From an uncultured Pelagibacteraceae bacterium (GTDB taxonomy: Bacteria; Pseudomonadota; Alphaproteobacteria; Pelagibacterales; Pelagibacteraceae): a DNA stretch of 64,000 nucleotides. Of the stretch, positions 29,341 through 60,315 are shown in pieces. The stretch spans positions 1 to 64,000 of the forward strand of contig CACLIZ010000002.1 of assembly GCA_902607115.1 (NCBI GenBank). Direction: 5' to 3'. A program made the position numbers and the translations under genes. Position 1 is the stretch's first letter, and each line of letters begins with the position of its first letter. A model generated the notes under the pieces. It ran no database searches, was not told where the DNA came from, and saw nothing but the letters and a program-made list of their open reading frames with translations.

Positions 29341-30576
29341 ATGAAGTTCAATAGAAAAATTAATCCTAACATTAAACCAAATCAAAATTTCATAACAAAA
29401 AAAAGATTAAGAGAGGATGAAATTAATTTTCAGAAACTTAGATCTTACAGGCTGGATAGAGTTAAAAAAGAATTAGAAAAAAATAATTTAGAAGCTTGTA
29501 TACTATTTGATCCAGTGAATGTTAGATATACTTTAGACTCTGTAAACATGAGCGTTTACAATATGCATAATCTTACTCGATACTGTTTTATACCAGTGAA
29601 TGGACCGGTAATACTGTATGAGTATTTTAATTGTGAAATATTATCTAAGCATTTAAATTTAATTGATGAGATCAGGCCAGCAATTACTTGGGATTATTTT
29701 AGCAATGGCGACCAAGCAAGTGTACAATTAAAAAAATGGGTTAATGAGATTAAAGATTTATCAAATTCTTACTTTAAAAGTAAAAAAGTAGCAATTGATG
29801 TTATTAATGGTCCAGCAGTGACAGCTTTAAACAAAGTAGATATTGATGTAGTAGATGCTAAATTAATTCTTGAACAAGCGAGAGTTATAAAATCTCCTGA
29901 AGAGTTAAAATGCATGAAGGCTGCAATAGAAGTTGCTGAAATTGGTGTTACGAAAATGCGTAAAGAATTAAAAGCTGGCATGACCGAAGATGAACTTTGG
30001 TCAATTTTACACAAAACAAATATCGAACATGGCGGTGAATGGATTGAGTGTAGAATACTTTCATCTGGTGAAAGAACAAACCCATGGATGCAAGAAAGTA
30101 GCAACAAAGTTATTCAAAGTGGCGAAATTGTTGCATTCGATACTGATATGGTTGGTCCTTATGGTTACTGTGCCGATATATCGAGAACATTTGTAGAAGG
30201 GAATAAATTTAATAATGAACAAAAACAGTTATACAAAATGGCAACAGACCATATTAATCATAATGCTAGATTAATCAAAAATGGTGTATCATTTAAAGAG
30301 TTTAGTGAAAAATCATGGAAACTTCCTGAAGAATACTATGGTAACCGATATTCATGTATGATTCATGGAATCGGCCTTTGTGATGAGTGGCCGCAAATAA
30401 AATATCCTACAGACGGAGGCCAAAGAGAAGGTTATTTTGAAAAAAACATGACCATAACAGTTGAGACTTATATTGGTAAAGTAGGTGGTAGAGAGGGTGT
30501 TAAACTAGAACAACAGTACTTAGTTGGTGAAAATAATCTTGAACTTATGTCACATCATCCTTTAGAACATATATAA
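29341..30576 (+). CDS. M24-family metalloenzyme, DddP (DMSP lyase)-like
   Basis: ILFDPVNVRYTLDSVNM; HGGEWIECRILSSGERTNPWMQE; IVAFDTDMVGPYGYCADISRTF; CMIHGIGLCDEWPQIKYP; TVETYIG; VKLEQQYL. Confidence 0.8.
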   Translation: MKFNRKINPNIKPNQNFITKKRLREDEINFQKLRSYRLDRVKKELEKNNLEACILFDPVNVRYTLDSVNMSVYNMHNLTRYCFIPVNGPVILYEYFNCEILSKHLNLIDEIRPAITWDYFSNGDQASVQLKKWVNEIKDLSNSYFKSKKVAIDVINGPAVTALNKVDIDVVDAKLILEQARVIKSPEELKCMKAAIEVAEIGVTKMRKELKAGMTEDELWSILHKTNIEHGGEWIECRILSSGERTNPWMQESSNKVIQSGEIVAFDTDMVGPYGYCADISRTFVEGNKFNNEQKQLYKMATDHINHNARLIKNGVSFKEFSEKSWKLPEEYYGNRYSCMIHGIGLCDEWPQIKYPTDGGQREGYFEKNMTITVETYIGKVGGREGVKLEQQYLVGENNLELMSHHPLEHI

Positions 30577-30983: not shown

Positions 30984-31363
30984 TGTCTTATCGATGGGAT
31001 AATAAAAAACCAACAGCTCAAATGTTAGGAAGATGGCAACCTTTTCATGATGGTCATTATGCTTTATTCGAAGAAATAATAAAAAAGACTGGTCAAGTTT
31101 GTATACAAATAAGAGATGTTCAAGGAGTAGAAGACAATCCTTTTGATTTTGAAACAGTTAAAAAGAAAATAGAAGAAAGATTAAATCCAAAATACGAAGG
31201 TAGATTTAAAATTATGTTAGTACCTAATATTACTAATATTTGTTACGGAAGAGGTGTAGGCTATAAAATAGAAGAAATAGTTATGCCTGAAGAAATTCAA
31301 AAAATTTCAGCAACCAAAATTAGAGCCAAAATGAGAGAAGATGGTGAACTAAAGAACAAATGA
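30983..31363 (+). CDS. Cytidylyltransferase-like nucleotidyltransferase
   Basis: MLGRWQPFHDGHYALFEEI (HxGH-like), ISATKIRAKMREDGEL (ISxTxIR). Confidence 0.78.
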   Translation: MSYRWDNKKPTAQMLGRWQPFHDGHYALFEEIIKKTGQVCIQIRDVQGVEDNPFDFETVKKKIEERLNPKYEGRFKIMLVPNITNICYGRGVGYKIEEIVMPEEIQKISATKIRAKMREDGELKNK

Positions 31364-32211
31364 ACAATAGACTTAAAACTATTGTTGACTTAGAAAAATA
31401 CCCAATTCAAGATTTAAATTCAACAAAAATAAAAGAAATAATTAATAAATGTAAAACTGATCTAGATCAATTTAGTTGTTCAACTATTCCTAATTTTATA
31501 CTTCCGAAATCTTTAGAAAGAATGAATTTAGAGTTAGAAAAACAAGTCGATAAAGTTTATATGTCTAACGAAAGCATCAACCCATACTTACATTCTAAAG
31601 ATGATTCTTCATTAGAAAAAGATCACCCAAAAAAAATATTTTCTAAACGATATAATGGATATTTAAACTCAGATCTTTTTGACAAAAATTCTGAGATGAA
31701 ATTTCTTTATCAACAAGAAGAACTTTTACAATTTGTATCTTCATGCGTCGGAATATCGCCAATTTATAGATGGGCAGACCCTTTAGCTTGTCATGCTTAT
31801 AATGTAATGAATCCTGATGGCATTCTTCCGTGGCACTTTGATAGTTGTGAGTTCACTTTGAGTATAATGATCCAAAAACCTGAGAAAGGTGGAATATTTG
31901 AATACTGTCCATATATCAGAGAACCTGGAAACGAAAATTTTGAAGAAGTCAAAAAAGTATTATATGGAGATCGTAAAAGAGTTCGGCAGCTAAGTTTAGA
32001 ACCAGGTGATTTACAAATATTTAAAGGTCGATACACTCTTCATAGAGTTACAAAAGTAGAAGGAAATCGTTCAAGATATCTTTGTATACCTGCTTATGTT
32101 TTGGATCCTTGGAGAGTTAATACACCAGAACACTCACGAGCTATATATGGAAAAGTGTTACCAATTCATCTAGAGAGAAATAAACCAAGAGCTGATGGTC
32201 TGGCTGATTAA
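31360..32211 (+). CDS. 2OG-Fe(II) oxygenase-like protein
   Basis: ILPWHFDSCEFTLSIMIQKPEKGGIFEY (HxD) and LEPGDLQIFKGRYTLHRVTKVEGNRSRYLCI. Confidence 0.7.
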   Translation: MNNRLKTIVDLEKYPIQDLNSTKIKEIINKCKTDLDQFSCSTIPNFILPKSLERMNLELEKQVDKVYMSNESINPYLHSKDDSSLEKDHPKKIFSKRYNGYLNSDLFDKNSEMKFLYQQEELLQFVSSCVGISPIYRWADPLACHAYNVMNPDGILPWHFDSCEFTLSIMIQKPEKGGIFEYCPYIREPGNENFEEVKKVLYGDRKRVRQLSLEPGDLQIFKGRYTLHRVTKVEGNRSRYLCIPAYVLDPWRVNTPEHSRAIYGKVLPIHLERNKPRADGLAD

Positions 32212-33150
32212 ATGATCAAAAATATTGCTGTAATTGGAACGGGAGTAATAGGAACAGGCTGGATAATAAGATTTTTAGCTCACAATAAGAAAGTTACAGC
32301 ATACGATAAAAATTTAAAATTAAAAAAAAATATCATTAAAGAAATAAAAAATTCTCAACCATATGTTAAAAAGTTATTTAATAAAAAAAAAATTAATCTA
32401 AGTAATTTTGAATATGTAAATTCAATAAAAGAAGCGGTAAAATCAGCAGATTTTATTCAAGAAAATGCAGTTGAAAATTATAAAATAAAAACGAAGTTAA
32501 TGAACGAAATAGGCAAGTATTCAAAGCCTAATGCTATTATTTCCTCTAGCTCTTCAGGTCTGCTCCCAACAAAAATATATTCTAAATGTAAATTTCCAGG
32601 CCGAACGATGATTGGGCACCCTTTTAACCCAGTATATTTATGCCCAGGAGTAGAAGTGGTACCTGGAAAAAAAACACAAAAAAAATTTCTAAATAAAGCT
32701 AATAAATTTTATAAATCAATTTCAATGAATCCAATTATGGTTAAAAAAGAATTACCAGGTTATTTGGCTGATAGACTTCAAGAAGCTCTTTGGAGAGAGG
32801 CTTTACATATAGTTAACGAAGGATATGCATCTACTAAAGATTTAGATAGAGCAATTGAAGATGGACCAGGGCTAAGGTGGTCTTTAATGGGAACCTTTTT
32901 AACATTTCATTTAGCTGGAGGAAAGCAAGGAATGAAGCATATGTTAAAACAATTTGGACCAGCTCTAAAACTTCCTTGGACCAAATTAAAAGCGCCCAAA
33001 CTTTCTAAAAAATTATCGGCTATAATTATTGATGGCACTAAACAACAAGCTAAAGGAAAATCTGTGACAATGATATCAAATATAAGGGATGAATATTTAG
33101 TTAATCTTCAAAAGTTAAGAAAAAAATATGAAGACAAAATAAGAAAATGA
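32212..33150 (+). CDS. L-carnitine dehydrogenase-like (3-hydroxyacyl-CoA dehydrogenase superfamily)
   Basis: GTGVIGTGWIIRF; GHPFNPVYLCPGVEVVPGKKT; DRLQEALWREALHIV; GGKQGMKHMLKQFGPALKLPWTKL. Confidence 0.8.
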   Translation: MIKNIAVIGTGVIGTGWIIRFLAHNKKVTAYDKNLKLKKNIIKEIKNSQPYVKKLFNKKKINLSNFEYVNSIKEAVKSADFIQENAVENYKIKTKLMNEIGKYSKPNAIISSSSSGLLPTKIYSKCKFPGRTMIGHPFNPVYLCPGVEVVPGKKTQKKFLNKANKFYKSISMNPIMVKKELPGYLADRLQEALWREALHIVNEGYASTKDLDRAIEDGPGLRWSLMGTFLTFHLAGGKQGMKHMLKQFGPALKLPWTKLKAPKLSKKLSAIIIDGTKQQAKGKSVTMISNIRDEYLVNLQKLRKKYEDKIRK

Positions 33151-34414: not shown

Positions 34415-35380
34415 TTAACGTTGATATTCAACGAATTTTTCCAAAGATTGTTTTAAGAACTTTTCATAAATCATTCCTGAATTATCAATTTTTGATTTAT
34501 GCAAAAAGGAAGTATTCATTTTAAAATCATAAGATGGCTCAAAGAAGAAAGGTATAGACATTCTATCAGCTTTATTCCAAAGAACTCTATGGTTTGTAGC
34601 TTTGAATTTACCTTTACTTAAAAATTCAAGAGCTCTTCCAGTATTTACAACTAGAGCTTTTTTATTAAATGGAACATCATGCCATTTTTTATTTTTTCTG
34701 TTTTGAACTTGTAATCCTCCCATTTTATCTTGATATAATACTGTAAAAATCCCACTATCTACATGAGTCTCACAACCCAAAGCAATCCCGTCCTGTTTTG
34801 AAATTTCGACTGGTTTTGATTGATTTGGATAATAATTAAATCTTAAAGTACTCAGTGTTTTTAATCTCGAAAAAACTTTTTTTGATATAATAGGGTCATC
34901 TTTATAAATTTTAATTACACTTTTAAATAAAATCTCACTCAAAACATAAATATTATCAAAATATTGAGATAAAATTTTAATTGATTTTTTATCAATAGAT
35001 TTATTTAAATTTAAATACTCTATATATCGATTTTTAATACTTTGAGCATATTTCCTAGTTACTTTTGTGTCACCTATGTCTAGACCTTCTTTTCCATTCA
35101 CATCATTAGGGAAATAACCTCTATAAACATTTTTATTTTTGTTATTCCATTTTTTTGGGGATAATTTCTTTTTGTTTTGATCAGAAGAGTTAAAAAATTT
35201 ATTTCCAACATTGGTTATATTTTGAATTTGTTTTTTGCTTATTCCATGATTGATTATCTGAAAAAAACCTACTTGAATGCATGCTTTTTCAATTTTTTTA
35301 ATTATTTGTTTTGATTTATTTGAATTTAGATTTTTTAAAAGGGAAGAAATATCAATTGTTGGAATAAAATTTTTTTTCAT
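34415..35380 (-). CDS. Isopenicillin N synthase-like 2OG-Fe(II) oxygenase
   Basis: GFFQIINHGISKKQI; ETHVDSGIFTVLYQDKMGGLQVQ; ATNHRVLWNK...RMSIPFFFEP. Confidence 0.88.
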   Translation of the reverse strand: MKKNFIPTIDISSLLKNLNSNKSKQIIKKIEKACIQVGFFQIINHGISKKQIQNITNVGNKFFNSSDQNKKKLSPKKWNNKNKNVYRGYFPNDVNGKEGLDIGDTKVTRKYAQSIKNRYIEYLNLNKSIDKKSIKILSQYFDNIYVLSEILFKSVIKIYKDDPIISKKVFSRLKTLSTLRFNYYPNQSKPVEISKQDGIALGCETHVDSGIFTVLYQDKMGGLQVQNRKNKKWHDVPFNKKALVVNTGRALEFLSKGKFKATNHRVLWNKADRMSIPFFFEPSYDFKMNTSFLHKSKIDNSGMIYEKFLKQSLEKFVEYQR

Positions 35381-36331
35381 TTATCTCATTGGTTTTTCTG
35401 TTGCTATAGATTGATCCTGTGCTTTTTCACGCATAAAAATATAAATACCACTTGAAACGATTATTAATATTCCTATTACTGTATTAGAAGTTGGAATTTC
35501 ATCAAAATAATACCAACCTATTAAGGGCGACCATAATAATATAGAATATTCAAAAGGAGAAACCACAGCAGGAGACGCTATACTATAAGCTTTAAATAAT
35601 AATAGGAAAGCTGCAGTTGCAGTTATTCCTGTTGTAATCATAAATAAAATAGAATTGTCTAAATCAATAAACCACTCTCTAAATATAAACTGAGAAGATG
35701 GATGGACAGATGTATTGAATTGACCGTCTCCAATAATAAAGTAAAAAATTATACTAAAAATTATTGCACCAATATAAAAAGTAAAAGTTTGCGTATATAC
35801 ACTATCTTTGTCTGAAGTTTTTTTAATTATTATCATCGATAAGGAATAACAAAATGCACATAAAATTGGTAATAAGCTTAAATAATCAAAATTACTAAAA
35901 TCTGGGTTTAAGGTTATATAGACTCCGATAAATCCAACAGCTATTGCAGACCATCTTCTTGGTCCTATTTCTTCTTTTAAAAAAAAATGAGCAAACATTG
36001 TAATTAAAAAAGGTGTAACGAAAAATAAAGCAGTAGCCGTTCCTAAAGGTAATACAGTTAATGATATATAAAAAGAACTGAATCCAAAGAAAAAAAGAAT
36101 TACACGGCAAAATGTTAAAATAGGATATTTGCTTTTAAATACAATTGGTTTTTTTGTTATAATTAAAAATAACAAAATAAGAATAAAGCTAACTACAGTT
36201 CTTACTAAATAAACTTCATAAAGTGAAACGAAGCTATAAATATGCTTCATAATCCCGTCTTGGACGGAAAAAACCATCATTGCTAATAAAATGAGAACTA
36301 TTCCTCTTGGATTATTATTTTGAGTGCTCAT
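35381..36331 (-). CDS. EamA/DMT-family transporter
   Basis: Ten hydrophobic segments; RTVVSFILILLFL; FFVTPFLITMFAHFFLKEEIGPRRW. Confidence 0.85.
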   Translation of the reverse strand: MSTQNNNPRGIVLILLAMMVFSVQDGIMKHIYSFVSLYEVYLVRTVVSFILILLFLIITKKPIVFKSKYPILTFCRVILFFFGFSSFYISLTVLPLGTATALFFVTPFLITMFAHFFLKEEIGPRRWSAIAVGFIGVYITLNPDFSNFDYLSLLPILCAFCYSLSMIIIKKTSDKDSVYTQTFTFYIGAIIFSIIFYFIIGDGQFNTSVHPSSQFIFREWFIDLDNSILFMITTGITATAAFLLLFKAYSIASPAVVSPFEYSILLWSPLIGWYYFDEIPTSNTVIGILIIVSSGIYIFMREKAQDQSIATEKPMR

Positions 36332-37661: not shown

Positions 37662-39242
37662 TCAATTTAATATTGAGTCTGCACCTTTTTCTGCAATCAT
37701 TAAAGTTGGTGCATTTAAGTTAGCACTTGGTATTTCAGGCATTACCGATGCATCAATAACTCTTAAATTTTGAATTCCTTTTACTTTTAAATTTTCATCA
37801 ACAACTGCCATATCATCAACTCCCATCTTACAAGTTCCACAAGGGTGATAAGCAGTTTCAGCTTTAGATTTGATATATTCATTTAACTCATCATCTGATT
37901 GTGCTTCTTTTCCTGGGCCAACTTCTTTTCCTGAATGTTTTGCTAAAGAAGGTTGCGCTAAGATCTTTCTTGCAACATGAATACATTCTCTAGTTTGTTT
38001 TAAATCATCTTCATCTTCCAAGTAATTAAATAAAATTTTAGGATAATCATATGGGTTTGATGAATTAAGAGTCACTAATCCTCTACTTTTTGGATGGTTA
38101 GGGCTAGCGTGTAATTGATAACCATGTGAGCTTGGGTTAACTAAACCATGATCTATAACAAAAGATGGAAAAAAATGAAATTGAATATTTGCGATTTCTC
38201 TCTTAGGAGAAGATTTTGCAAAACCTCCAGCTTCTAAAAAAGATTGAGAACATGGTCCAGATTTAGATAAAAACCATTGTATTCCAGCTAAAACTTTTGG
38301 AATTAGTTTGGTATATTTATAAAGAGTATCTGATGTTTTACATTCTTGCATAATGTATGTTTCTAAGTGATCTTGAAGGTTTCTACCTACACCTTTTACA
38401 TCGTTAACAACATTAATTCCTTTATCTTTTAAATGATTTGCATCACCAATTCCAGAAAGCATTAGTAATTGTGGTGAATTAATTGAACCACCACTTAATA
38501 TTATTTCTTTATTTGCATAAATTTTTTTAACTTTATTTTTAATTTTCACTTCAATACCTATGGCTTTTTTTCCATCAAAAATTATTTTTTCAACAAATGA
38601 ATTTGAAAAAATATTTAAATTTTTTCTGCTTTTTACTGGGTTCAAATAATATCTAGCTACACTTGCCCTTTCTCCTTTATGAATAGTAGTATCAAACATT
38701 CCAAATCCTTCTTGATATTCACCATTCATATCAGGATTAATTTTATGACCAGCTTCAGAAGCCGCTTCTAAAAAAGAACTAAATAAAGGATTATTATTTT
38801 TTGATTGATTTACCGGTAGCAAACCAAAAGAACCTCTATATTGATTTTTTCCTTCAGACCATGTTTCGATTTTTTTAAAATAAGGTAAAATTTTTTCATA
38901 AGACCAAGATTTTAATCCAAAGTTTTCCCATCTTTCATAATCATTTCTGTTTCCTCGTACAAAAACCATTCCATTATGAGCAGAACAACCTCCAATCATT
39001 TTTCCTCTAGGGCAAAATAATCTTCTATTATTTAAATGTGGTTCTGGCTCTGAATAGTATTTCCAATTGTATTTTGGATCATGCATGGTGTAAAGAAGAG
39101 CAAGTGGCATTTTAACTTTCCAAATATCACTTGATCCACCTGCTTCAAAAATTGCAACTTTATGATTACTATTTTCGGACAATCTATTTGCTAGAACACA
39201 TCCCGCTGATCCAGCGCCAACAATTAAATAATCATAATTCAT
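37662..39242 (-). CDS. betA: GMC-family oxidoreductase, choline dehydrogenase-like
   Basis: YLIVGAGSAGCVLANRLSE, GKMIGGCSAHNGMVFVRGN, GRNLQDHLE, YHPCGTCKMG. Confidence 0.82.
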   Translation of the reverse strand: MNYDYLIVGAGSAGCVLANRLSENSNHKVAIFEAGGSSDIWKVKMPLALLYTMHDPKYNWKYYSEPEPHLNNRRLFCPRGKMIGGCSAHNGMVFVRGNRNDYERWENFGLKSWSYEKILPYFKKIETWSEGKNQYRGSFGLLPVNQSKNNNPLFSSFLEAASEAGHKINPDMNGEYQEGFGMFDTTIHKGERASVARYYLNPVKSRKNLNIFSNSFVEKIIFDGKKAIGIEVKIKNKVKKIYANKEIILSGGSINSPQLLMLSGIGDANHLKDKGINVVNDVKGVGRNLQDHLETYIMQECKTSDTLYKYTKLIPKVLAGIQWFLSKSGPCSQSFLEAGGFAKSSPKREIANIQFHFFPSFVIDHGLVNPSSHGYQLHASPNHPKSRGLVTLNSSNPYDYPKILFNYLEDEDDLKQTRECIHVARKILAQPSLAKHSGKEVGPGKEAQSDDELNEYIKSKAETAYHPCGTCKMGVDDMAVVDENLKVKGIQNLRVIDASVMPEIPSANLNAPTLMIAEKGADSILN

Positions 39243-39775
39243 TTAAGTGATGCTTTTAATAAATCTTTGTATTGAATGATATCTTTTATTTTGAAGCCTA
39301 CTTTTTTTGCCTCTTCATCAAACTTTCTAAGCTTGATAGCTTCTTTAAAGAATTCTTCTTTTTCGAATGATTTAGCCTCTTTGCTATTTAATGGGCCTCC
39401 TTGAAGTTTAAGGCTTACAATTGATGCATTAGATAATCGATTATAATACTTTTTATTTCTTGAAAGATATCTTTTAGCTATAACGTGATGCTTTATTGGC
39501 TCAACTATTTCTCTTTTAAAAAATTTTTTTAAATATTCATAACCTATATCCTCATGTTTACCGTCTTGGTTTTTTCTGACTAGCTCATCAGGATCATCTA
39601 AAATGAAATGTCCATAATCATGTAATAAACACGAACAAACCAAATAATCTTTGCTCCTTGATTTTTCAGCCATCATTGCTGATTGAATCATGTGCTCAGA
39701 GATTGTTACATTTTCTCCTATATAAAGTGATTTATTATTTTTAAAGTTACTTATAATTTTTTCAACTATATCCAT
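39239..39775 (-). CDS. HD-domain protein with PhnZ/TmpB-like diiron oxygenase signature
   Basis: YIGENVTISEH, LLHDYGH, KHEDIGYEYL, HHVIAKRYL, LRKFDEEAKK; overlaps the GMC gene by 4 nt. Confidence 0.82.
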   Translation of the reverse strand: MDIVEKIISNFKNNKSLYIGENVTISEHMIQSAMMAEKSRSKDYLVCSCLLHDYGHFILDDPDELVRKNQDGKHEDIGYEYLKKFFKREIVEPIKHHVIAKRYLSRNKKYYNRLSNASIVSLKLQGGPLNSKEAKSFEKEEFFKEAIKLRKFDEEAKKVGFKIKDIIQYKDLLKASLK

Positions 39776-39778
39776 TAA

Positions 39779-40606
39779 CTATTGCGGATGATCTCCTTCA
39801 ATTGCAATTCGATCCATAATTCTCTCATGACCAAGTCCTCTTCCAGGGAAAAAATCAGTTAATCCTTGGTGTTGAGTACTTCTATTATCCCAAATAGCAA
39901 CTGAATTTTCAGTCCATTTAAATCTACATGTAAAATCTAATCTTTCCTGATGTTCAAAAATCTTTTTTAAAATTTCATTACTTTCTTTTTGTTCCATACC
40001 AATAATTTTTTTTGTGTACATAGAATTAACATAAAGTATTTTTTTCTTTGTTTCAGGATGAGTTCTTACCATTGGATGTTCGTTTGAATATTCGTCTAAG
40101 TTACCATTACCTTCCATTTCTGTATATTTATCTACAAATGCTGCTGCACCTAATGAACTATGAATTGCTTTTTTTCCTTCAATTTTTTTTTTTATTTCTT
40201 CATCAAGTGTTTCATAAGCAATTTCCATATTTGAAAACATAGTATCACCACCTACAGGAGGAATTTTTCTTGATCTTAAGATTATCACTTTTGTTGGTTT
40301 AGGATTGTAACTTACATCTGTATGCCACGTTTCCCCCCATTGATGTTTTTCATCAGCTCCTTTAATTATTCTAATTATTTCTGGATAACCTTTAAGGCTT
40401 TTAACATAGATATGTTTTTCTAAAGGACCAAACTTTTTTGCTAAATTAATTTGTTCTTCACAAGTAATATCTTGATCTCTAAAAAAAAGAACTTTGTGTT
40501 CAAGCATTAGTTTATTAATTACTTCCCAGTTTTCTTTTGAGGAGTCTTTTAAGTTTATACCACTTATTTCTGCCCCTAATGCTCCAGATAATAATTTTAC
40601 TTCCAT
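39779..40606 (-). CDS. TauD/TfdA-family 2OG-Fe(II) dioxygenase
   Basis: LGAEISGINL, VLFFRDQDI, TWHTDVSYNPKP, WDNRSTQHQGL, RIMDRIAI. Confidence 0.9.
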   Translation of the reverse strand: MEVKLLSGALGAEISGINLKDSSKENWEVINKLMLEHKVLFFRDQDITCEEQINLAKKFGPLEKHIYVKSLKGYPEIIRIIKGADEKHQWGETWHTDVSYNPKPTKVIILRSRKIPPVGGDTMFSNMEIAYETLDEEIKKKIEGKKAIHSSLGAAAFVDKYTEMEGNGNLDEYSNEHPMVRTHPETKKKILYVNSMYTKKIIGMEQKESNEILKKIFEHQERLDFTCRFKWTENSVAIWDNRSTQHQGLTDFFPGRGLGHERIMDRIAIEGDHPQ

Positions 40607-40607
40607 C

Positions 40608-41090
40608 TTACTTTTTTAATTTTCCTATAAATTTTAAATTTTCATTTTTAAATTTTGCATTATTTTCACTAATAAAACTATCCATTATTTGTGTTCTTTG
40701 TTGATCAAATTCAGCCACTTTTCTTTTATTTAAATCAACATGAAGAGATAACATTTCTATAGTTGATGAAAGTTTTCTAGATTTTTTTTCAATCATTTCT
40801 AGTCTGAAATGCAGCCTCTTTTTGTCGTGATCAAAAAAAGTTAATACTATTTCAACTTCATTTCCTTCTTTGACTTCACTGTCATAGGTAGTATTAGTTT
40901 CAACAACCATTGTACTCATTCCACTTGTTTTTGCAGAATGTTCACCCATGTTAAATTTTTCTAGGATAACCTCCCATGCTTTATCAAAAATTAAGACATA
41001 GTATGCCATGTTGAGGTGTTTATTATAATCTGTCCATTCAGATTTAATTATTTGATTTGAAACATGAACTGTCATATTTTTATTTCCCAA
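40608..41090 (-). CDS. 4HBT-fold thioesterase, betainyl-CoA thioesterase (CdhB)-like
   Basis: SEWTDYNKHLNMAYYVLIFDKAWE hotdog motif; divergent from the CdhC-like gene. Confidence 0.72.
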   Translation of the reverse strand: MGNKNMTVHVSNQIIKSEWTDYNKHLNMAYYVLIFDKAWEVILEKFNMGEHSAKTSGMSTMVVETNTTYDSEVKEGNEVEIVLTFFDHDKKRLHFRLEMIEKKSRKLSSTIEMLSLHVDLNKRKVAEFDQQRTQIMDSFISENNAKFKNENLKFIGKLKK

Positions 41091-41124: not shown

Positions 41125-42012
41125 ATGAACAATAAAGTATTTATATCTTGTGCTGTTACTGGTTCTGGTGATACAGCATCTAAACATCCAGATTTGCCAA
41201 AAACTCCTGAGCAAATTGCAACAGCTGCCATTGAGTCAGCTAAAGCTGGTGCAGCAATCGCGCATATTCACGTAAGAGAAGATGATGGACGTCCAAGTAG
41301 GAGGTTAGAGCTGTATAAAGAGGTTGTTGATAGAATTAGGTCTAGCGATACTGATGTTGTTTTAAATTTAACAACTGGAATGGGGGGCGATCTAGATATA
41401 GGGCAAGGAGAAAATCCATTAGAATTTGGTCCAATGACAGATATGGCAAATGTCATGGAAAGAATTGCTAATGCAGAACAATTTTTACCAGAAATTTGCA
41501 CTCTTGATTGTGGAACTTTAAATTTTGGAGATAGTTCTGTTATTACAGTCAATACTCCAAATGACTTAAGAAAAGCCGCAAAAAGATTAAAAGAAATAAA
41601 TGTTAAACCTGAGATAGAAGCATTTGATTTAGGCAATATGTGGTTTGGAGCTCAACTATATAAAGAAGGCCTGTTAAATGATCCACCAATGTTTCAGATG
41701 TGTCTGGGTATACCATGGGGAGCCCCAGCAACACCTCTAGCAATGCAAGCAATGAAAGATGTAATGCCAAAAGAAGGTATTTGGTCAGGATTTGCAATTT
41801 CAAAAAATGAAATGCCATTCGTAGCTCAAACAGTAATTATGGGAGGAAATCCTAGAGTAGGACTTGAAGATAATTTGTACTTAGAAAAAGGAAAATTAGC
41901 AACAAACGCTCAATTAGTTGAGAAAGCAATTAGAATTGTTACAGACCTTGGTGTGTCAATAATGACTCCCGCTGAAACGAGAGAAAAACTCAAGCTTAAA
42001 AATTATAAATAA
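41125..42012 (+). CDS. BKACE-family enzyme, dehydrocarnitine cleavage (CdhC)-like
   Basis: ISCAVTGSGDTASKHPDLPKTPEQIATAAIESAKAGAAIAHIHVRE; LPEICTLDCGTLNFGD; MCLGIPWGAPATP; GGNPRVGLEDNLYL. Confidence 0.85.
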   Translation: MNNKVFISCAVTGSGDTASKHPDLPKTPEQIATAAIESAKAGAAIAHIHVREDDGRPSRRLELYKEVVDRIRSSDTDVVLNLTTGMGGDLDIGQGENPLEFGPMTDMANVMERIANAEQFLPEICTLDCGTLNFGDSSVITVNTPNDLRKAAKRLKEINVKPEIEAFDLGNMWFGAQLYKEGLLNDPPMFQMCLGIPWGAPATPLAMQAMKDVMPKEGIWSGFAISKNEMPFVAQTVIMGGNPRVGLEDNLYLEKGKLATNAQLVEKAIRIVTDLGVSIMTPAETREKLKLKNYK

Positions 42013-42563: not shown

Positions 42564-43349
42564 TTAATCCAATCTAGTAGCATTTCCATCTACAGGAATA
42601 GTTTGTCCTGAAATCCTTTCACCATCTCTAGAAATTAAAAAAGAACACAATTTTCCTATATCTTCTTCATAAATCCAACAGTTCATTGATGCCATAGACA
42701 CAAAATCTTTTTCTATTATTTTTTTTGAGATTTTTAAAAATTTAGCCTTATCTCTTATAACTCTTACCATTCTATCTCCTTTAATAGTTCCAGGACAAAT
42801 AGCATTTACTCTAATTTTAAATTTTCCTAGCTCCATTGCTAATGTTTTGGTAACTCCTATTATAGCCCACTTACTGGCAGCATATGGAGATCGTAAAGGA
42901 AAACCCATAATACCAGCACCTGAAGAGATATTTATAATTGATCCACTTTTGTTTTTTTTAAGCATAGGTATAGCTAGTTTTGTAAAATAAAAATGACTTA
43001 CTACATTAATCTTTAATGTTTTCTCCCACTCATCAGAACTTAATTTTTCTAAAGATCCAGTAGGTCCAGCAACTCCGACATTATTAATTAATGCATCGAT
43101 TTTATTTGTTTTTTTTATAATTTTATCAAATAAATCTGAAACTTCATATTCATCTGAAGCATCACATTCATAAGAAAAAAGTCTTTTATTATTTAATGGA
43201 TGTTTTTGAATTTTTTTTAAAGATTTAATATCTATATCACAGAGGTAAACAATAGCACCTTTTGAGAGGCAAACCTTTGCAATTGCCCACCCAATTCCAG
43301 AAGCGCCTGCTGAAATAATGATTTTTTTATTATGAAGACTTAACGGCAT
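42564..43349 (-). CDS. SDR-family oxidoreductase
   Basis: ISAGASGIGWAIAK, INNVGVAGPTG, SPYAASKWAIIGVTKTLAMEL. Confidence 0.92.
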   Translation of the reverse strand: MPLSLHNKKIIISAGASGIGWAIAKVCLSKGAIVYLCDIDIKSLKKIQKHPLNNKRLFSYECDASDEYEVSDLFDKIIKKTNKIDALINNVGVAGPTGSLEKLSSDEWEKTLKINVVSHFYFTKLAIPMLKKNKSGSIINISSGAGIMGFPLRSPYAASKWAIIGVTKTLAMELGKFKIRVNAICPGTIKGDRMVRVIRDKAKFLKISKKIIEKDFVSMASMNCWIYEEDIGKLCSFLISRDGERISGQTIPVDGNATRLD

Positions 43350-44382
43350 TAGCCATATGTTCTTTTGTTAATGCTTTTGAAAGTTCTTTTTGAGTAATGT
43401 AACCTTTTACATTACCATTTTTATCAACAACTTCACAATTTGCATTTGAACAAACTACTTGAGGTAAAAATTCATCAATAAACTGATCCTCACCTACCTT
43501 AACTAAATTATTTTTATCAATTCCATTTGCTGAATTTGCAGGAACCATAATAATCTTTGCTTTAATTACTTTTGCACGATTTACATCTTTTACAAAAGCT
43601 TCAACATAATCGTCAGCTGGATTCATAATAATATCTATTGGTGTACCAACTTGAACCAATCTTCCACCATTTAATATTCCTATATGATCTCCTAATCTTA
43701 AAGATTCATCCAAATCATGTGTTATAAATACTATTGTTTTTTTTAATTCACTTTGTAGATCGATCAGTTGTTTTTGCATATCACTTCTAATTAAAGGGTC
43801 TAGGGCTGAAAAAGCTTCATCCATTAACATTATGTCTGTGTTAGTAGCTAGTGCTCTAGCTAAACCAACTCTTTGTTGCATTCCACCAGATAATTGATTT
43901 GGGTACTGATGTTCAAAACCAGTTAGACCTACAGCTTCAATTTTTTCCATTGCTGTTTTATTTCTTTCTTCTAGTTTTTGTCCTTGAACTTCAAGGCCAT
44001 AACCAACATTTTCTATAACAGTCTTATGAGGAAATAAGCCAAATCTTTGAAACACCATGCTCATCTTGTGTCTTCTAAATTCAATTAATTTATTTTGATC
44101 AAGGTCCATTACATTTGTTCCTTCAACTGAAACCACTCCAGAAGTTGGGTCTATTAATCTGTTAATATGACGAATAAGTGTAGATTTACCTGAACCAGAC
44201 AAGCCCATACAAACAAAAGTTTCTCCTTCTTCTATGGACAAAGATACATTATCAAGCCCTACAGTGTGTCCTGTTTTTTCTAAAACTTCTTCTTTTGTAG
44301 CTCCATCTTGAACCATTGGAAGAACCTTTGATGGTTGATCACCAAAAATTTTATATACATTTTTAATTTCAATCTTGCTCAT
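43330..44382 (-). CDS. proV: Glycine betaine/proline ABC transporter ATPase
   Basis: GLSGSGKSTLIRHINRL, LSGGMQQRVGLARALA, LMDEAFSALDPLIR, C-terminal CBS-like region. Confidence 0.95.
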   Translation of the reverse strand: MSKIEIKNVYKIFGDQPSKVLPMVQDGATKEEVLEKTGHTVGLDNVSLSIEEGETFVCMGLSGSGKSTLIRHINRLIDPTSGVVSVEGTNVMDLDQNKLIEFRRHKMSMVFQRFGLFPHKTVIENVGYGLEVQGQKLEERNKTAMEKIEAVGLTGFEHQYPNQLSGGMQQRVGLARALATNTDIMLMDEAFSALDPLIRSDMQKQLIDLQSELKKTIVFITHDLDESLRLGDHIGILNGGRLVQVGTPIDIIMNPADDYVEAFVKDVNRAKVIKAKIIMVPANSANGIDKNNLVKVGEDQFIDEFLPQVVCSNANCEVVDKNGNVKGYITQKELSKALTKEHMANAVKSS

Positions 44383-44385
44383 AAT

Positions 44386-45405
44386 TTATAATACCAAATT
44401 CTTTTTATGATATGTTCTTTCTTGAATTTTCTCTCCATATGATTGTGTAATTCTATCAAATATAATTGCTAATAAAACTATTGCAATACCTGCTTCAGTT
44501 GCCATACCTACATTTAGCTGTTGTAATCCAAGCAATACTTCGTCTCCAATTCCTCTGGTACCAATCATTGATGCAATTACTACCATTGCTAAAGACATCA
44601 TTGTACATTGATTTATTCCTTGCATTATGTTGGGTAATGCTAACGGCAATTGCACTCCCCATAATTTTTGTTTTTTGTTTGCGCCAAAAGCTTCTGCTGC
44701 TTCAATTACTTCTTTATCAACCAATCTAATTCCTAGATCTGTTAATCTTATTAATGGTGGAACTGCATATACAAATATTGCAAATATTGCTGGAACAGCT
44801 CCCAAACCAAACAATAAAATTCCTGGAATTAAGTAACAAAAACTAGGAATTGTTTGCATTAAATCTAGTACTGGCAATAAAGCATTTCTTACTTTTTTAT
44901 TTCTTGCCATCATAATTCCCACTGGAATTCCAATTATTAAACAAAGCAACATTCCAATAACAACTATACATGTAGTCATAATACATTTGTCCCAATATCT
45001 AGGACTAAGGAAACCAAGGAAAAAAACACAAAAAGCAACCATAATAGTTGTTCCCATGTTTTTACCGCTAACAAAATAACAAAGTGCGATTACTGCTATC
45101 ATTAACAAGGGCCAAGGAAGACCAACCATAAAATTTTTCATCTGAGTATATAAACCAAGAAGGAAATTATTAATTCCTTCAAAAAACATTCCATACTCTC
45201 TAATAAGTGAATCAAACCCTTCATTTAAGTATGGCATTAAAGGAAGATCTAGCCATTTAGGCCAATTTCCTAACCAAGAAAAATCTGTAAATAAAACTGA
45301 AACACTTTCAGGTCTATATTTTGAACTTGTGTATGCAACAACTACCATTGCAACAAAAGCAATCAAATATAGTGAATAAAAAATATATTTCTTGTATTTT
45401 CCCAT
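44386..45405 (-). CDS. proW: Glycine betaine/proline ABC transporter permease
   Basis: IPVGIMMARNKKVRNALLPVLDLMQTIPSFCYLIPGILLFGLG, EAFGANKKQKLWGVQLPLALP. Confidence 0.95.
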   Translation of the reverse strand: MGKYKKYIFYSLYLIAFVAMVVVAYTSSKYRPESVSVLFTDFSWLGNWPKWLDLPLMPYLNEGFDSLIREYGMFFEGINNFLLGLYTQMKNFMVGLPWPLLMIAVIALCYFVSGKNMGTTIMVAFCVFFLGFLSPRYWDKCIMTTCIVVIGMLLCLIIGIPVGIMMARNKKVRNALLPVLDLMQTIPSFCYLIPGILLFGLGAVPAIFAIFVYAVPPLIRLTDLGIRLVDKEVIEAAEAFGANKKQKLWGVQLPLALPNIMQGINQCTMMSLAMVVIASMIGTRGIGDEVLLGLQQLNVGMATEAGIAIVLLAIIFDRITQSYGEKIQERTYHKKNLVL

Positions 45406-45424
45406 TTGTACTTTCTTATAAAAA

Positions 45425-45450
45425 ACTAAGAGCCCTTACGGGCTCTTAGT
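45425..45450 (-). terminator. Intrinsic-terminator-like hairpin between binding-protein and permease genes
   Basis: ACTAAGAGCCC-TTAC-GGGCTCTTAGT, 11-bp perfect stem followed on the minus strand by a T run. Confidence 0.88.
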
Positions 45451-45470
45451 ATCTAAGAATTATTTAAAAA

Positions 45471-46496
45471 TTAAAGCGAAGCTTTAACTTTTTTAGCAAC
45501 ATCTGCAGGGACCCATTTAGTCCAAGAGCTAGAACCTTTTAAAAAGTTCTTAGCAGTTGCTTCCATATCTCCACCTGATTCATCAATGTAAAATGCAAGT
45601 GATTTGTTCACTTCAGCAGTAGGTAAAGTGTATGCTTTTACAAAGTCAATGATTGGTTTATTTTCTGGTTTGTTAGCAAAAGTAGTTGATGCAGATTTTG
45701 TTAAAGCCATATCCACATAAGCACTAGCACAAGTTTTTGTGTATGCATCTGGGCCATCAGCTTTAATTTTTTCTACAACAGCCATCATTTTTGTCCAACA
45801 AGCATTATCATACGCAGGCTCTTTAAGTTGAACAAGATCAACTTTTCCCATTAAACCTGTCGGTGTCCAGTAATAAGAAAATACTGGTTTACCTTTTTTA
45901 AATGCACCAGCAATTGCCGCATCTAATGCTCCACCTGAACCTGGATCAAAGTTAGTATAGTATTTATCTAAACCATAAACTTTGTGTTTAACCAAGTTAA
46001 TTGTGTAGCAAGTCCATCCTGAAATACAGCTAGTCATTCTACCTTTTCCAGGTGACTCAGGATCAGCAAAAAGTTTTGCTATTTCTGGCTTCATCATATC
46101 TTCTACGCTTACCAAGCCATATTTATCTGCAGTTGGTTTATCCACATAGAAACCTTGAGTAGATGAAGGAGTGTTTACTCCTAATTCAACAATTTGTCCT
46201 TTTGCAACAGCTTCTTCATGCATTTGAACAATATTATCTCTCCAAACTTCAGTTATAATATCAAGCTGTTGATCATAGTGTGCAGCCATTATTGGAGAAG
46301 TACTTCCTTTAGTTACTTCAACACTGCATCCGTATCCTTTTTCTATAATGTAACCAACGATCGCAGTATGAACGTTAGCACTATCCCAGTCGAAATCTCC
46401 CAAATGTACTTTACATGCAGCATTTGCACTAGTAGTGCCTAAAGTTGTTACTGCTAAAAAAGCAATTGAAAGAAATAGTTTTTTTAGAAACCTCAT
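45471..46496 (-). CDS. proX: Glycine betaine/proline ABC transporter substrate-binding protein
   Basis: Signal peptide; VHLGDFDWDSANVHTAIVGYIIEKGYGCSVEVTKGST; PVFSYYWTPTGLMGK. Confidence 0.92.
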   Translation of the reverse strand: MRFLKKLFLSIAFLAVTTLGTTSANAACKVHLGDFDWDSANVHTAIVGYIIEKGYGCSVEVTKGSTSPIMAAHYDQQLDIITEVWRDNIVQMHEEAVAKGQIVELGVNTPSSTQGFYVDKPTADKYGLVSVEDMMKPEIAKLFADPESPGKGRMTSCISGWTCYTINLVKHKVYGLDKYYTNFDPGSGGALDAAIAGAFKKGKPVFSYYWTPTGLMGKVDLVQLKEPAYDNACWTKMMAVVEKIKADGPDAYTKTCASAYVDMALTKSASTTFANKPENKPIIDFVKAYTLPTAEVNKSLAFYIDESGGDMEATAKNFLKGSSSWTKWVPADVAKKVKASL

Positions 46497-46672
46497 GAAT
46501 TTCCCCCTTATTTTAGTTTAAACTTCTGGCATTAAAACTTGATAAAAAGAAAAACACAACCTTTAATCAGATTTATATGAACCAATAAAGTAAAGGAAAA
46601 CAATAAAAAAAAACATTAATTCAATTATTAATTGAATTGAAAATAAAGCATATTAAAATAATAGTCTTGAAT

Positions 46673-47803
46673 ATGACTATACAGATTTCAAAAGTTTCAA
46701 AAAATGGTTCAGCATTGAATGTTGAATGGAGCGATGGGGAAAAAAGTAATTTTAACTTTATGTGGTTAAGAGATAATTGCCCCTCAGCTCATGATAAAGA
46801 CTCCAGGCATCGAATGTTTAATATTTTAGAAATTTCCACAAACATCGAACCTAAAACTTGTAAAATTAATAATAACGAAGGTAAGCTAGAAGTAGAATGG
46901 AGCGAAGGAAATCATATTAGTTATTACGATCAAAAATGGCTTAGGCAAAATTGTTATACTATAAACAACAAAAAAAAATATATTTCTCCTTATCAACTAT
47001 GGAATAATTCTCTACAAAAAAATTTAAAATCAATCAGTATAGAACACAACGAAATAATTAATACAGACAAAGGTCTGATAAAATGGTTAGAACTTTTACA
47101 TTATAAAGGAATTGCAATTGTAAAAAATGCTCCAATTGAAAAAGAATCAGCTTTTCCAGTTCTTAATAGAATAAGTCATACAAGAGAAACTTTTTTTAAA
47201 ACACCTTTTGAAGTCATAAATGTTCCAAAGCCAAACAATTCTGCTTACACAGCGCATGCATTAAGAAATCATATGGATTTACCTTGGTTTGAAAATCCCC
47301 CAGGTTACCAATTTCTTCATTGTTTAATTAATGCTGCTGAAGGAGGAGATTCTTCAGCTGTAGATGCATTTGCAGTTGCTGATTATTTAAGAAAAAATGA
47401 AAAAGAAATCTTTGAAACATTAATAAATGTACCCATTAAGTTTAGGGATAAAGATTACACGCAAGAGTCTCATAGAAGTTTTTATGGTCCTGCAGTTAGC
47501 TTAACTAAAGATGGTGATTACAATGATATAAGATTTAGTGTTGCTACTATGGATGCATTAGATTGTCATCCAGATATTATGGATAAGATTTATAAAGCAC
47601 ATCATAGATTTGGTAATCTTTTGCACGATGACAAATTTCAAATTAAATTTCGATTAGAATCTGGAGATATTTTTTCATTTAATAATAGAAGAATTTTACA
47701 TGGAAGAACTGCTTTTGATCCAAATTCAGGTCATAGACATTTGCAAGGTTATTATATGGATAGAGATGAAATAATAGGAAGATTAAATTATTTAAAAAAA
47801 TAA
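46673..47803 (+). CDS. Gamma-butyrobetaine hydroxylase (BBOX)-like 2OG dioxygenase; start at internal Met likely
   Basis: N-terminal DUF971-like region (VEWSDGEKSNFNFMWLRDNCPS); TAHALRNHMDLPWFENPPGYQFLHCL; FSFNNRRILHGRTAF; GHRHLQGYYMDRDEI. Confidence 0.85.
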   Translation: MTIQISKVSKNGSALNVEWSDGEKSNFNFMWLRDNCPSAHDKDSRHRMFNILEISTNIEPKTCKINNNEGKLEVEWSEGNHISYYDQKWLRQNCYTINNKKKYISPYQLWNNSLQKNLKSISIEHNEIINTDKGLIKWLELLHYKGIAIVKNAPIEKESAFPVLNRISHTRETFFKTPFEVINVPKPNNSAYTAHALRNHMDLPWFENPPGYQFLHCLINAAEGGDSSAVDAFAVADYLRKNEKEIFETLINVPIKFRDKDYTQESHRSFYGPAVSLTKDGDYNDIRFSVATMDALDCHPDIMDKIYKAHHRFGNLLHDDKFQIKFRLESGDIFSFNNRRILHGRTAFDPNSGHRHLQGYYMDRDEIIGRLNYLKK

Positions 47804-59313: not shown

Positions 59314-60315
59314 ATGTCTGATAAATTTAAAGCGATCGTGATTGATCATAAATCTGAAAAGTTCTCAAGAGAAATTAAAGAATTAGATTCTAGCTTTTTA
59401 GATCAAGGAGATATTCTTGTAAAAGTAGATTATTCAGACTTAAATTACAAAGATGCTTTAATTTTAAATGATGGAGGAAAATTAGTTAGAGACTTCCCAA
59501 GAATACCAGGGATTGATTTTTCAGGAAAAGTTTTAGAGAGCAACACAGATGAATTTAAAAAAGATGATGAGGTAATTGTAACTGGTTGTAGAGTAGGTGA
59601 AATGTATCACGGTGGATACTCTCAGTTAGCAAAAGTAAAAAAAGAATTTTTAGTTAAAAAGCCAAAAAGTTTATCAACAAAAGAATCTATGATAATTGGC
59701 ACGGCAGGTTTTACAGCTTTACTTTGTGCATTTGCCGTTAATGCAAGAGAAGAAATTTTATTAGGTGAAAAAGTAAACGATGTATTGGTAACTGGAGCAA
59801 CAGGTGGCGTGGGTACTATTGCTGTGATGGCATTATCTAAACTAGGTTACAATGTTACAGCTGTTACTGGTAAAGTTGAAAATGCCGAATTATTAAAAAA
59901 ACTTGGTGCAAAAAACATAGTTAATAGGTCTGAATTTGAAGGTGAAACAAAATTACTTGGAAAAGCAATATGGGATGGAGTGGTCGATACAGTAGGTGGA
60001 AACATTTTAGCTCAGGCTATATCACAGACAAAACATTCAGGAATAGTTGCCGCTTGTGGAAATGCCGGTGGGATTAAATTGAACACTAACGTTATGCCTT
60101 TTATTTTAAGAGGTGTTAAACTTTGGGGAATTGACTCAATACAAGTTAGCATGAAGAGAAGAGAGTTTATATGGTCTCAAGTTGAAAGATTAGTAGACTT
60201 TAAAGTTCTGGAAGAAATTGTTCAAGTTGTTAATATGGAAGAGTTAATGAACATCTTTCCAAAAATGCTTAAAGGACAAACCTCTGGAAGAACTGTAGTT
60301 GATGTAAATAAGTAA
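59314..60315 (+). CDS. acuI: AcuI/YhdH-family acrylyl-CoA reductase-like oxidoreductase
   Basis: DYSDLNYKDALILNDGGKLVRDFPRIPGIDFSG, GTAGFTALLC, VTGATGGVGTIAVMALSKLGYNVTAVTGK. Confidence 0.85.
   Translation: MSDKFKAIVIDHKSEKFSREIKELDSSFLDQGDILVKVDYSDLNYKDALILNDGGKLVRDFPRIPGIDFSGKVLESNTDEFKKDDEVIVTGCRVGEMYHGGYSQLAKVKKEFLVKKPKSLSTKESMIIGTAGFTALLCAFAVNAREEILLGEKVNDVLVTGATGGVGTIAVMALSKLGYNVTAVTGKVENAELLKKLGAKNIVNRSEFEGETKLLGKAIWDGVVDTVGGNILAQAISQTKHSGIVAACGNAGGIKLNTNVMPFILRGVKLWGIDSIQVSMKRREFIWSQVERLVDFKVLEEIVQVVNMEELMNIFPKMLKGQTSGRTVVDVNK

Follow-up and report, generated by a model that had tools for sequence, protein, structure and literature searches.

A PhnZ/TmpB-type oxygenase gene in a variable operon of the SAR11 carnitine and glycine betaine island

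What does a putative carbon-phosphorus (C-P) cleaving oxygenase do among genes for glycine betaine metabolism, and does the 2-oxoglutarate (2OG) and Fe(II)-dependent dioxygenase encoded beside it supply its substrate? These questions are raised by a locus in a 64,000-nucleotide stretch of DNA from an uncultured Pelagibacteraceae bacterium (positions 1 to 64,000 of contig CACLIZ010000002.1, referred to throughout as the window). The source genome is 893 kb in size and 69% complete, and its nearest relatives are Pelagibacteraceae single-cell genomes; the window, its contig 2, belongs to SAR11. Members of the Phn-HD family convert alpha-hydroxyphosphonates to a carboxylate and phosphate by mixed-valent diiron oxygenation, and the TmpA/TmpB pair of Leisingera caerulea produces glycine betaine and phosphate from 2-(trimethylammonio)ethylphosphonate. 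As judged from its sequence, the HD protein of the window is an oxygenase of the PhnZ/TmpB type, and we tentatively propose that it is an accessory C-P cleaving enzyme in a betaine-funnelling operon, acting probably on a quaternary-ammonium alpha-hydroxyphosphonate for which the neighboring TauD-type dioxygenase would be the most plausible candidate supplier.

Organization of the operon

A sequence-only reading of the window had described three minus-strand genes lying end to end, and this is exactly how the open reading frames (ORFs) are arranged. The gene for a GMC oxidoreductase of the choline-dehydrogenase subfamily (526 aa; 37662-39242; PF00732/PF05199, PRK02106) shares 4 nt with that of the Phn-HD (PhnZ/TmpB-type) diiron oxygenase (178 aa; 39239-39775; PF01966, 1.3e-8), which is in turn separated by 3 nt from the gene for a plain TauD-type 2OG-Fe(II) dioxygenase (275 aa; 39779-40606; PF02668, 4.6e-60). 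A fourth gene that this reading had overlooked, for a 4HBT-type thioesterase (40608-41090, also minus strand; PF13279, 9.8e-22; C-terminal part of PRK07531, 1.3e-16), is located 1 nt upstream of TauD, and the operon therefore reads thioesterase-TauD-HD-GMC, with the thioesterase as its leading gene. This order is kept across dozens of genomes; 38 of 38 adjacent TauD-HD pairs are 3-9 nt apart, the HD-GMC spacing ranges from a 4-nt overlap up to 8 nt (45 pairs), and in relatives the thioesterase is upstream of GMC whether TauD and HD are present or absent. The HD ORF is not a chance occurrence, because it is intact in dozens of Pelagibacter genomes at identities of 61-91%. The GMC protein scores 726 bits against PRK02106 (cutoff 605) and 648 against the betA equivalog TIGR01810, below the cutoff of 732; its closest PDB entry is the choline dehydrogenase 9lq0 (1e-144).

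Family and active-site residues of the HD protein

The solved proteins closest to the HD protein are TmpB (6npa, 1.1e-33) and then PhnZ (4mlm, 1.1e-26). The residues that had been pointed out (Y18, E21, H28, H52-D53, H74, H97 and D153) are all present and are invariant in 19 SAR11 homologues. The diiron ligand set (H28, H52-D53, H74, H97 and D153) aligns to that of PhnZ, and the spacings claimed for the two proteins agree with this alignment, the first three being identical (7, 24 and 22) and the last two differing by a single residue (23 vs 24, and 56 vs 57). All 23 HD proteins of the window clade contain the YxxE loop (Y18/E21), which is typical of both PhnZ (Y24/E27) and TmpB (Y30/E33) (PMC8177086). 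The suggestion that the HD protein fits a mixed-valent diiron oxygenase better than an ordinary phosphohydrolase is thus borne out by its top solved matches and by the invariance of ligands and loop. The protein scores 164.3 bits against the Phn-HD model TIGR03276, below a cutoff of 214.6 that is a scoring threshold and not a mechanistic feature, and 163.6 bits against the TmpB equivalog NF049941, below the cutoff of 300. An AlphaFold model built from a shallow own-sequence alignment (predicted local distance difference test, pLDDT, 51.6) has PhnZ 4mlm as its top Foldseek match (E 3.3e-3, TM 0.29), but the model is poor and the match is not counted.

Phylogeny and a TmpB-like signature

A maximum-likelihood tree was built from 86 HD proteins; its deep parts are weak and several rows have a skewed composition. 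The window clade has support of 100/100 and is sister (98/94) to SAR11-order HDs from PhnX/PhnCDE loci together with an HD encoded beside a PhnY-like methylphosphonate hydroxylase (F2/L182). TmpB groups with L183, L184, L193, L194 and L197. In the course of this analysis we derived a signature from PhnZ positions 31 and 35, which flank the first metal-binding His. A hydrophobic residue at 31 and Met at 35 are found in 23 of 23 window-clade HDs and also in seven of the eight tabulated HDs paired with a BBOX-type (TmpAB-like) dioxygenase, a fraction better read as 7/9 since the BBOX-adjacent L069 has Gln and Ala. Among 45 other HDs, Gln occupies position 31 in 35 and Ala position 35 in 36. The signature hints at an N-methylated substrate for the HD protein, as a correlation and not as proof of the substrate.

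Pelagibacter also has a second type of Phn-HD, about 41% identical and with Gln31 and Ala35 (L065, L153, L154 and about 15 genomes of the genus), at an unrelated locus near ABC-transporter genes.

The TauD-type dioxygenase

The dioxygenase had been called a plain TauD type, and it is indeed taurine-dioxygenase-like and not TmpA-like. It scores 221 bits against the taurine dioxygenase model PRK09553 (cutoff 313), and the TmpA model is not among its profile matches; assignment of this gene as a TmpA was rejected. When its residues are mapped onto E. coli TauD (MG1655), the Fe ligands, the 2OG ligands and the equivalents of His70 and Arg270 (H65 and R266) are kept, whereas Tyr73, Asp94, Asn95 and Phe206 are replaced by Val, Trp (W90), Gly and Tyr (Y197). 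H65, W90, Y197 and R266 are invariant in 61 of 61 TauD orthologues. We take His70 and Arg270 of the E. coli enzyme to bind the taurine sulfonate, and Tyr73, Asp94 and Asn95 to bind the amine. The window protein belongs to the same fold family as taurine dioxygenase, but differs at these three amine positions, falls under the equivalog cutoff and has no adjacent taurine ABC genes. An AlphaFold model from a shallow own-sequence alignment has a pLDDT of 49.4.

In one single-cell genome (L042/L146) TauD is split into two ORFs while HD and GMC are intact, reflecting either a sequencing error or recent inactivation.

Distribution of TauD and HD

The distribution of these genes was surveyed in 249 genomes of the genus, nearly all of them at least 75% complete; many are incomplete, such that single absences are unsafe, whereas absence from within an intact operon (e.g. 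L129, L136, L166) is safe. The window-clade HD is present in 47 genomes, TauD in 75, GMC in 105, and the orthologue of a BBOX-family gene described below in roughly 120. The 105 GMC loci comprise 37 with both TauD and HD, 34 with TauD only, 8 with HD only and 26 with neither, a co-occurrence above expectation (Fisher odds ratio 3.5, p 0.006). In G501 the seemingly lost TauD is present as the two ORFs of a split gene, and the locus in G023 is cut off by the end of its contig; the HD-only class is therefore really about six, essentially one lineage (L147-L152). With the counts corrected to 38, 34, 6 and 26 in the same order p becomes 0.001, although both values overstate the association because related genomes are not independent.

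Several further features bear on the relationship between the two genes. The HD label needs seven changes on the TauD tree, at least five of them forced, and the TauD proteins of L156 (HD present) and L129 (HD absent) are 97% identical. No alignment column separates HD-plus from HD-minus TauDs within the genus; TauD is unchanged by the presence of HD. TauD is also found in other surroundings that include neither GMC nor HD (L131 and L137-L143), among them those of a sister family whose own HDs are in loci of the 2-aminoethylphosphonate (2-AEP) type. The 53 HD loci fetched from outside Pelagibacter showed no plain TauD, and the 2OG partners seen in them are BBOX- or PhyH-type. Since TauD occurs without HD both at the GMC locus and elsewhere, and the HD-plus and HD-minus proteins are alike, TauD has a role for which HD is not required; and as HD is likewise found without TauD, a dedicated TauD-HD pathway is not established. 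The two had been presented as a dedicated pair, a view that in this form is not supported given TauD without HD in the operons of 34 genomes, the HD-only lineage and the near-identical TauDs with and without HD. A lack of co-conservation had been named beforehand as refuting, and on this point the outcome is mixed: co-occurrence is above expectation, by a p-value uncorrected for relatedness, but the pairing is far from obligatory.

The composition of the operon varies in other ways. In one SAR11 group (L046-L048, L050 and L052) a formate dehydrogenase operon (FdsA-/FdsB-like, FdhD) takes the place of the thioesterase, directly upstream of TauD-HD-GMC and on the same strand. Other relatives add a class II aldolase and/or a CitE/RipC-like lyase to the thioesterase-TauD-GMC operon (L129:5441-7028, L147-L152), and a similar CitE-like gene follows HD at the distant L182 locus, which has PhnDCE and a PhnY-like gene. 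Downstream of GMC on the same strand, an EamA transporter and an IPNS-like 2OG oxygenase (34415-36331) are kept with the operon in many relatives.

Other candidate hydroxylases

A BBOX/TmpA-family dioxygenase, likewise overlooked in the sequence-only reading, is encoded on the plus strand at 46637-47803, 6 kb from the operon, and scores 317 bits against TIGR02409 (cutoff 415) and 268 against the TmpA model NF049936 (cutoff 400). It is probably a gamma-butyrobetaine hydroxylase. It has N at position 191 and Ser-Val in place of TmpA Asn292-Asn293. A second TmpA-like gene lies elsewhere in the source genome, near an inositol-phosphatase-like gene (G000:C15:7274-8383, L200), and encodes Asp at 191 and Ser-Thr at 292-293; a 69%-identical relative at L061 reaches 340 bits against the TmpA cutoff of 400. 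Of 35 genomes checked, 29 have a gene of this type, among them the HD-less finished genomes G313 and G404. The Asn-Asn pair common to BBOX1, TmpA and the HD-paired TmpAs is absent from both BBOX-family enzymes found in the genome, and from distribution and residues we judge either one unlikely to be a dedicated TmpA. No PhnY reaching its cutoff was found in 20 genomes; a PhnY search of 19 Pelagibacterales genomes gave one moderate match (G692, 152 bits, cutoff 500), those in G516 and G000 being weak. As neither BBOX-family gene is convincing as a TmpA, TauD is the best hydroxylase candidate where it is present; the HD-only lineage has no obvious candidate.

The surrounding island

The sequence-only reading had placed TauD-HD-GMC in a glycine betaine setting, and the neighboring genes agree with this. 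Divergent from the operon is a beta-keto acid cleavage enzyme (BKACE) gene on the plus strand (41125-42012; PF05853, 2.2e-93), whose product probably cleaves 3-dehydrocarnitine and which in many relatives adjoins a carnitine dehydrogenase homologue. In the window, a 3-hydroxyacyl-CoA-dehydrogenase-fold protein resembling L-carnitine dehydrogenase is encoded at 32212-33150 (plus strand; PRK07066, 341 bits, cutoff 414; PF02737/PF00725). The operon thioesterase is similar to the thioesterase domain at the C-terminus of carnitine 3-dehydrogenase and is probably a betainyl-CoA thioesterase. A betaine/choline-type ABC transporter (ProV, ProW and an OpuAC-type binding protein) is encoded at 43330-46496 on the minus strand (TIGR01186 proV above its cutoff; choline permease and ProW models; OpuAC PF04069, 1.8e-44), and the region also contains a homocysteine S-methyltransferase family gene and two DMGDH/sarcosine-oxidase-like genes. 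The island probably represents a route from gamma-butyrobetaine and carnitine to glycine betaine, and the methyltransferase and DMGDH/sarcosine-oxidase-like genes are consistent with the demethylation of glycine betaine, for which SAR11 is predicted to rely on a Bhmt (PMC12478193). Carnitine metabolism has been noted in offshore SAR11 genera (PMC12636525), and a route via carnitine dehydrogenase, BKACE and betainyl-CoA has been described (PMC12482172). The window has homologues of the dehydrogenase, BKACE and the thioesterase, along with the gamma-butyrobetaine hydroxylase-like gene and ProVW, but the route as described is without TauD, HD and GMC, all three of which are in the window operon. 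PhnW, PhnX and PhnCDE are all absent from the island.

Some other genes were noted in the window. The protein encoded at 31360-32211, preceding the carnitine dehydrogenase-like gene, has a weak match to the HalD halogenase family (2.7e-11) and is more likely a hydroxylase than a halogenase because it contains HxD (HFD). A DddP-like protein (29341-30576; 351 bits, cutoff 600) and an acrylyl-CoA reductase family gene (59314-60315; YhdH above its cutoff) are possibly related to dimethylsulfoniopropionate. Rfam has no match anywhere in the window.

Possible roles of TauD and HD

We regard thioesterase-TauD-HD-GMC as a putative variable module of the SAR11 carnitine and glycine betaine island. TauD would hydroxylate its substrate next to the oxyanion of a quaternary ammonium compound, in keeping with an active site that retains the oxyanion-binding His and Arg but has lost the site for a primary amine, and where both genes are present it would be the most plausible source of an alpha-hydroxyphosphonate. 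HD would then cleave the C-P bond of this compound, which probably has a quaternary ammonium group, yielding phosphate together with a carboxylate (most probably glycine betaine) for the island to consume; such a two-step pathway from TauD to HD is plausible. In genomes without HD, the substrate of TauD may be an analogous sulfonate or sulfate (e.g. trimethyltaurine or choline sulfate), whose alpha-hydroxylated form would collapse to betaine aldehyde, oxidizable by the choline-dehydrogenase-like GMC, whereas an alpha-hydroxylated phosphonate would be stable and need HD. This difference could explain why TauD-GMC occurs both with and without HD. A bolder version, in which a taurine-type TauD was re-tooled for quaternary ammonium compounds to serve a sulfonate route through betaine aldehyde and GMC and, where HD was added, a phosphonate route, would make it a SAR11 type of Phn-HD alpha-hydroxylase distinct from both PhyH-type PhnY and BBOX-type TmpA; we consider this unlikely.

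A number of observations weigh against a TauD-HD route to glycine betaine. The pairing of the two genes at the GMC loci is far from obligatory, one lineage has HD without TauD, and TauD bears no mark of the presence of HD. The window HD clade is next to HDs of 2-AEP and methylphosphonate operons and outside the TmpB clade; the HD protein misses the TmpB, PhnZ1 and Phn-HD cutoffs, as TauD does that of taurine dioxygenase. The roles assigned to the TauD residues are carried over from E. coli TauD, and no phosphonate transporter is seen in the island.

The same distribution is compatible with a scheme in which HD cleaves C-P bonds while TauD and GMC form a separate route, for example from trimethyltaurine or choline sulfate through betaine aldehyde to glycine betaine, the two sharing only a product pool and HD taking its substrate from another enzyme or from seawater. 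It is favored by the 34 genomes in which TauD-GMC lacks HD, by the one lineage in which HD-GMC lacks TauD, and by the 97% identity of HD-plus and HD-minus TauDs, with no separating column, and the TmpA-like gene at G000:C15, with its prevalence and the 340-bit score of its L061 relative, would offer an alternative hydroxylase. However, that gene is present in genomes without HD (G313, G404) and its product has neither the N191 nor the N292 of true TmpAs, and TauD and HD co-occur at the locus more often than expected (again uncorrected for relatedness); we see this scheme as possible, if somewhat unlikely. Action of HD on non-methylated substrates, either (R)-2-amino-1-hydroxyethylphosphonate ((R)-HAEP) from 2-AEP or hydroxymethylphosphonate, to give glycine or formate, appears quite unlikely: the TmpB-like residues at positions 31 and 35 in every window-clade HD and the lack of PhnW, PhnX and PhnCDE in the island oppose the suggestion made by the sister relationship with HDs beside PhnX/PhnCDE or the PhnY-like methylphosphonate hydroxylase, and the formate dehydrogenase operon directly upstream of TauD-HD-GMC in the L046-L052 group, which would suit a formate product, also serves betaine methyl-group oxidation.

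Two further alternatives concern the identity of single proteins. If the BBOX-like gene at 46637-47803 were the TmpA of HD, TauD would be unrelated; its best PDB match is TmpA itself (6npb, 4.7e-49) and an orthologue is found in nearly all HD-bearing genomes, yet the gamma-butyrobetaine model outscores that of TmpA (317 vs 268), most of the roughly 120 genomes with the gene (about half of the genus) have no HD, Ser-Val replaces the Asn-Asn of BBOX and TmpA, and a carnitine island is where a gamma-butyrobetaine hydroxylase is expected, making this assignment highly unlikely. That HD is an ordinary HD phosphohydrolase, as its Pfam match to the HD domain only might suggest, is extremely improbable and was discarded on the homology to TmpB and PhnZ, the significant matches including no other HD phosphohydrolase, and on the YxxE loop and full diiron ligand set, both invariant.

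Comparison with known systems

The proposed TauD-HD route resembles TmpA/TmpB in having an HD oxygenase beside a 2OG dioxygenase, in the YxxE loop and diiron ligands, in the hydrophobic residue and Met at positions 31 and 35, and in its glycine betaine setting. It differs in that the dioxygenase is TauD-type and not BBOX-type and often occurs without HD, that HD lies outside the TmpB clade and under the TmpB cutoff, and that the operon adds a thioesterase and GMC. PhnY/PhnZ and the PhnY*/PhnZ1 pair of Gimesia, which act on 2-AEP or methylphosphonate, use the same HD oxygenase family, and the closest clade to the window HD (L182, F2) is in phosphonate operons; but the window HD is without an adjacent PhyH-type PhnY or a nearby phosphonate transporter, and has a hydrophobic residue and Met in place of Gln31 and Ser/Ala35.

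Few cells in the ocean are as abundant as SAR11 bacteria. In a global survey in which phnZ is counted as a 2-AEP gene, 45% of the marine phnZ sequences come from Pelagibacterales (PMC9381506). The SAR11 Phn-HD of this window lies in a carnitine and glycine betaine island and has a TmpB-like signature, and is not in a 2-AEP operon. Should this enzyme act on a methylated aminophosphonate, part of the 2-AEP degradation counted in metagenomes would be misassigned, and SAR11 could obtain both phosphate and glycine betaine from one compound.

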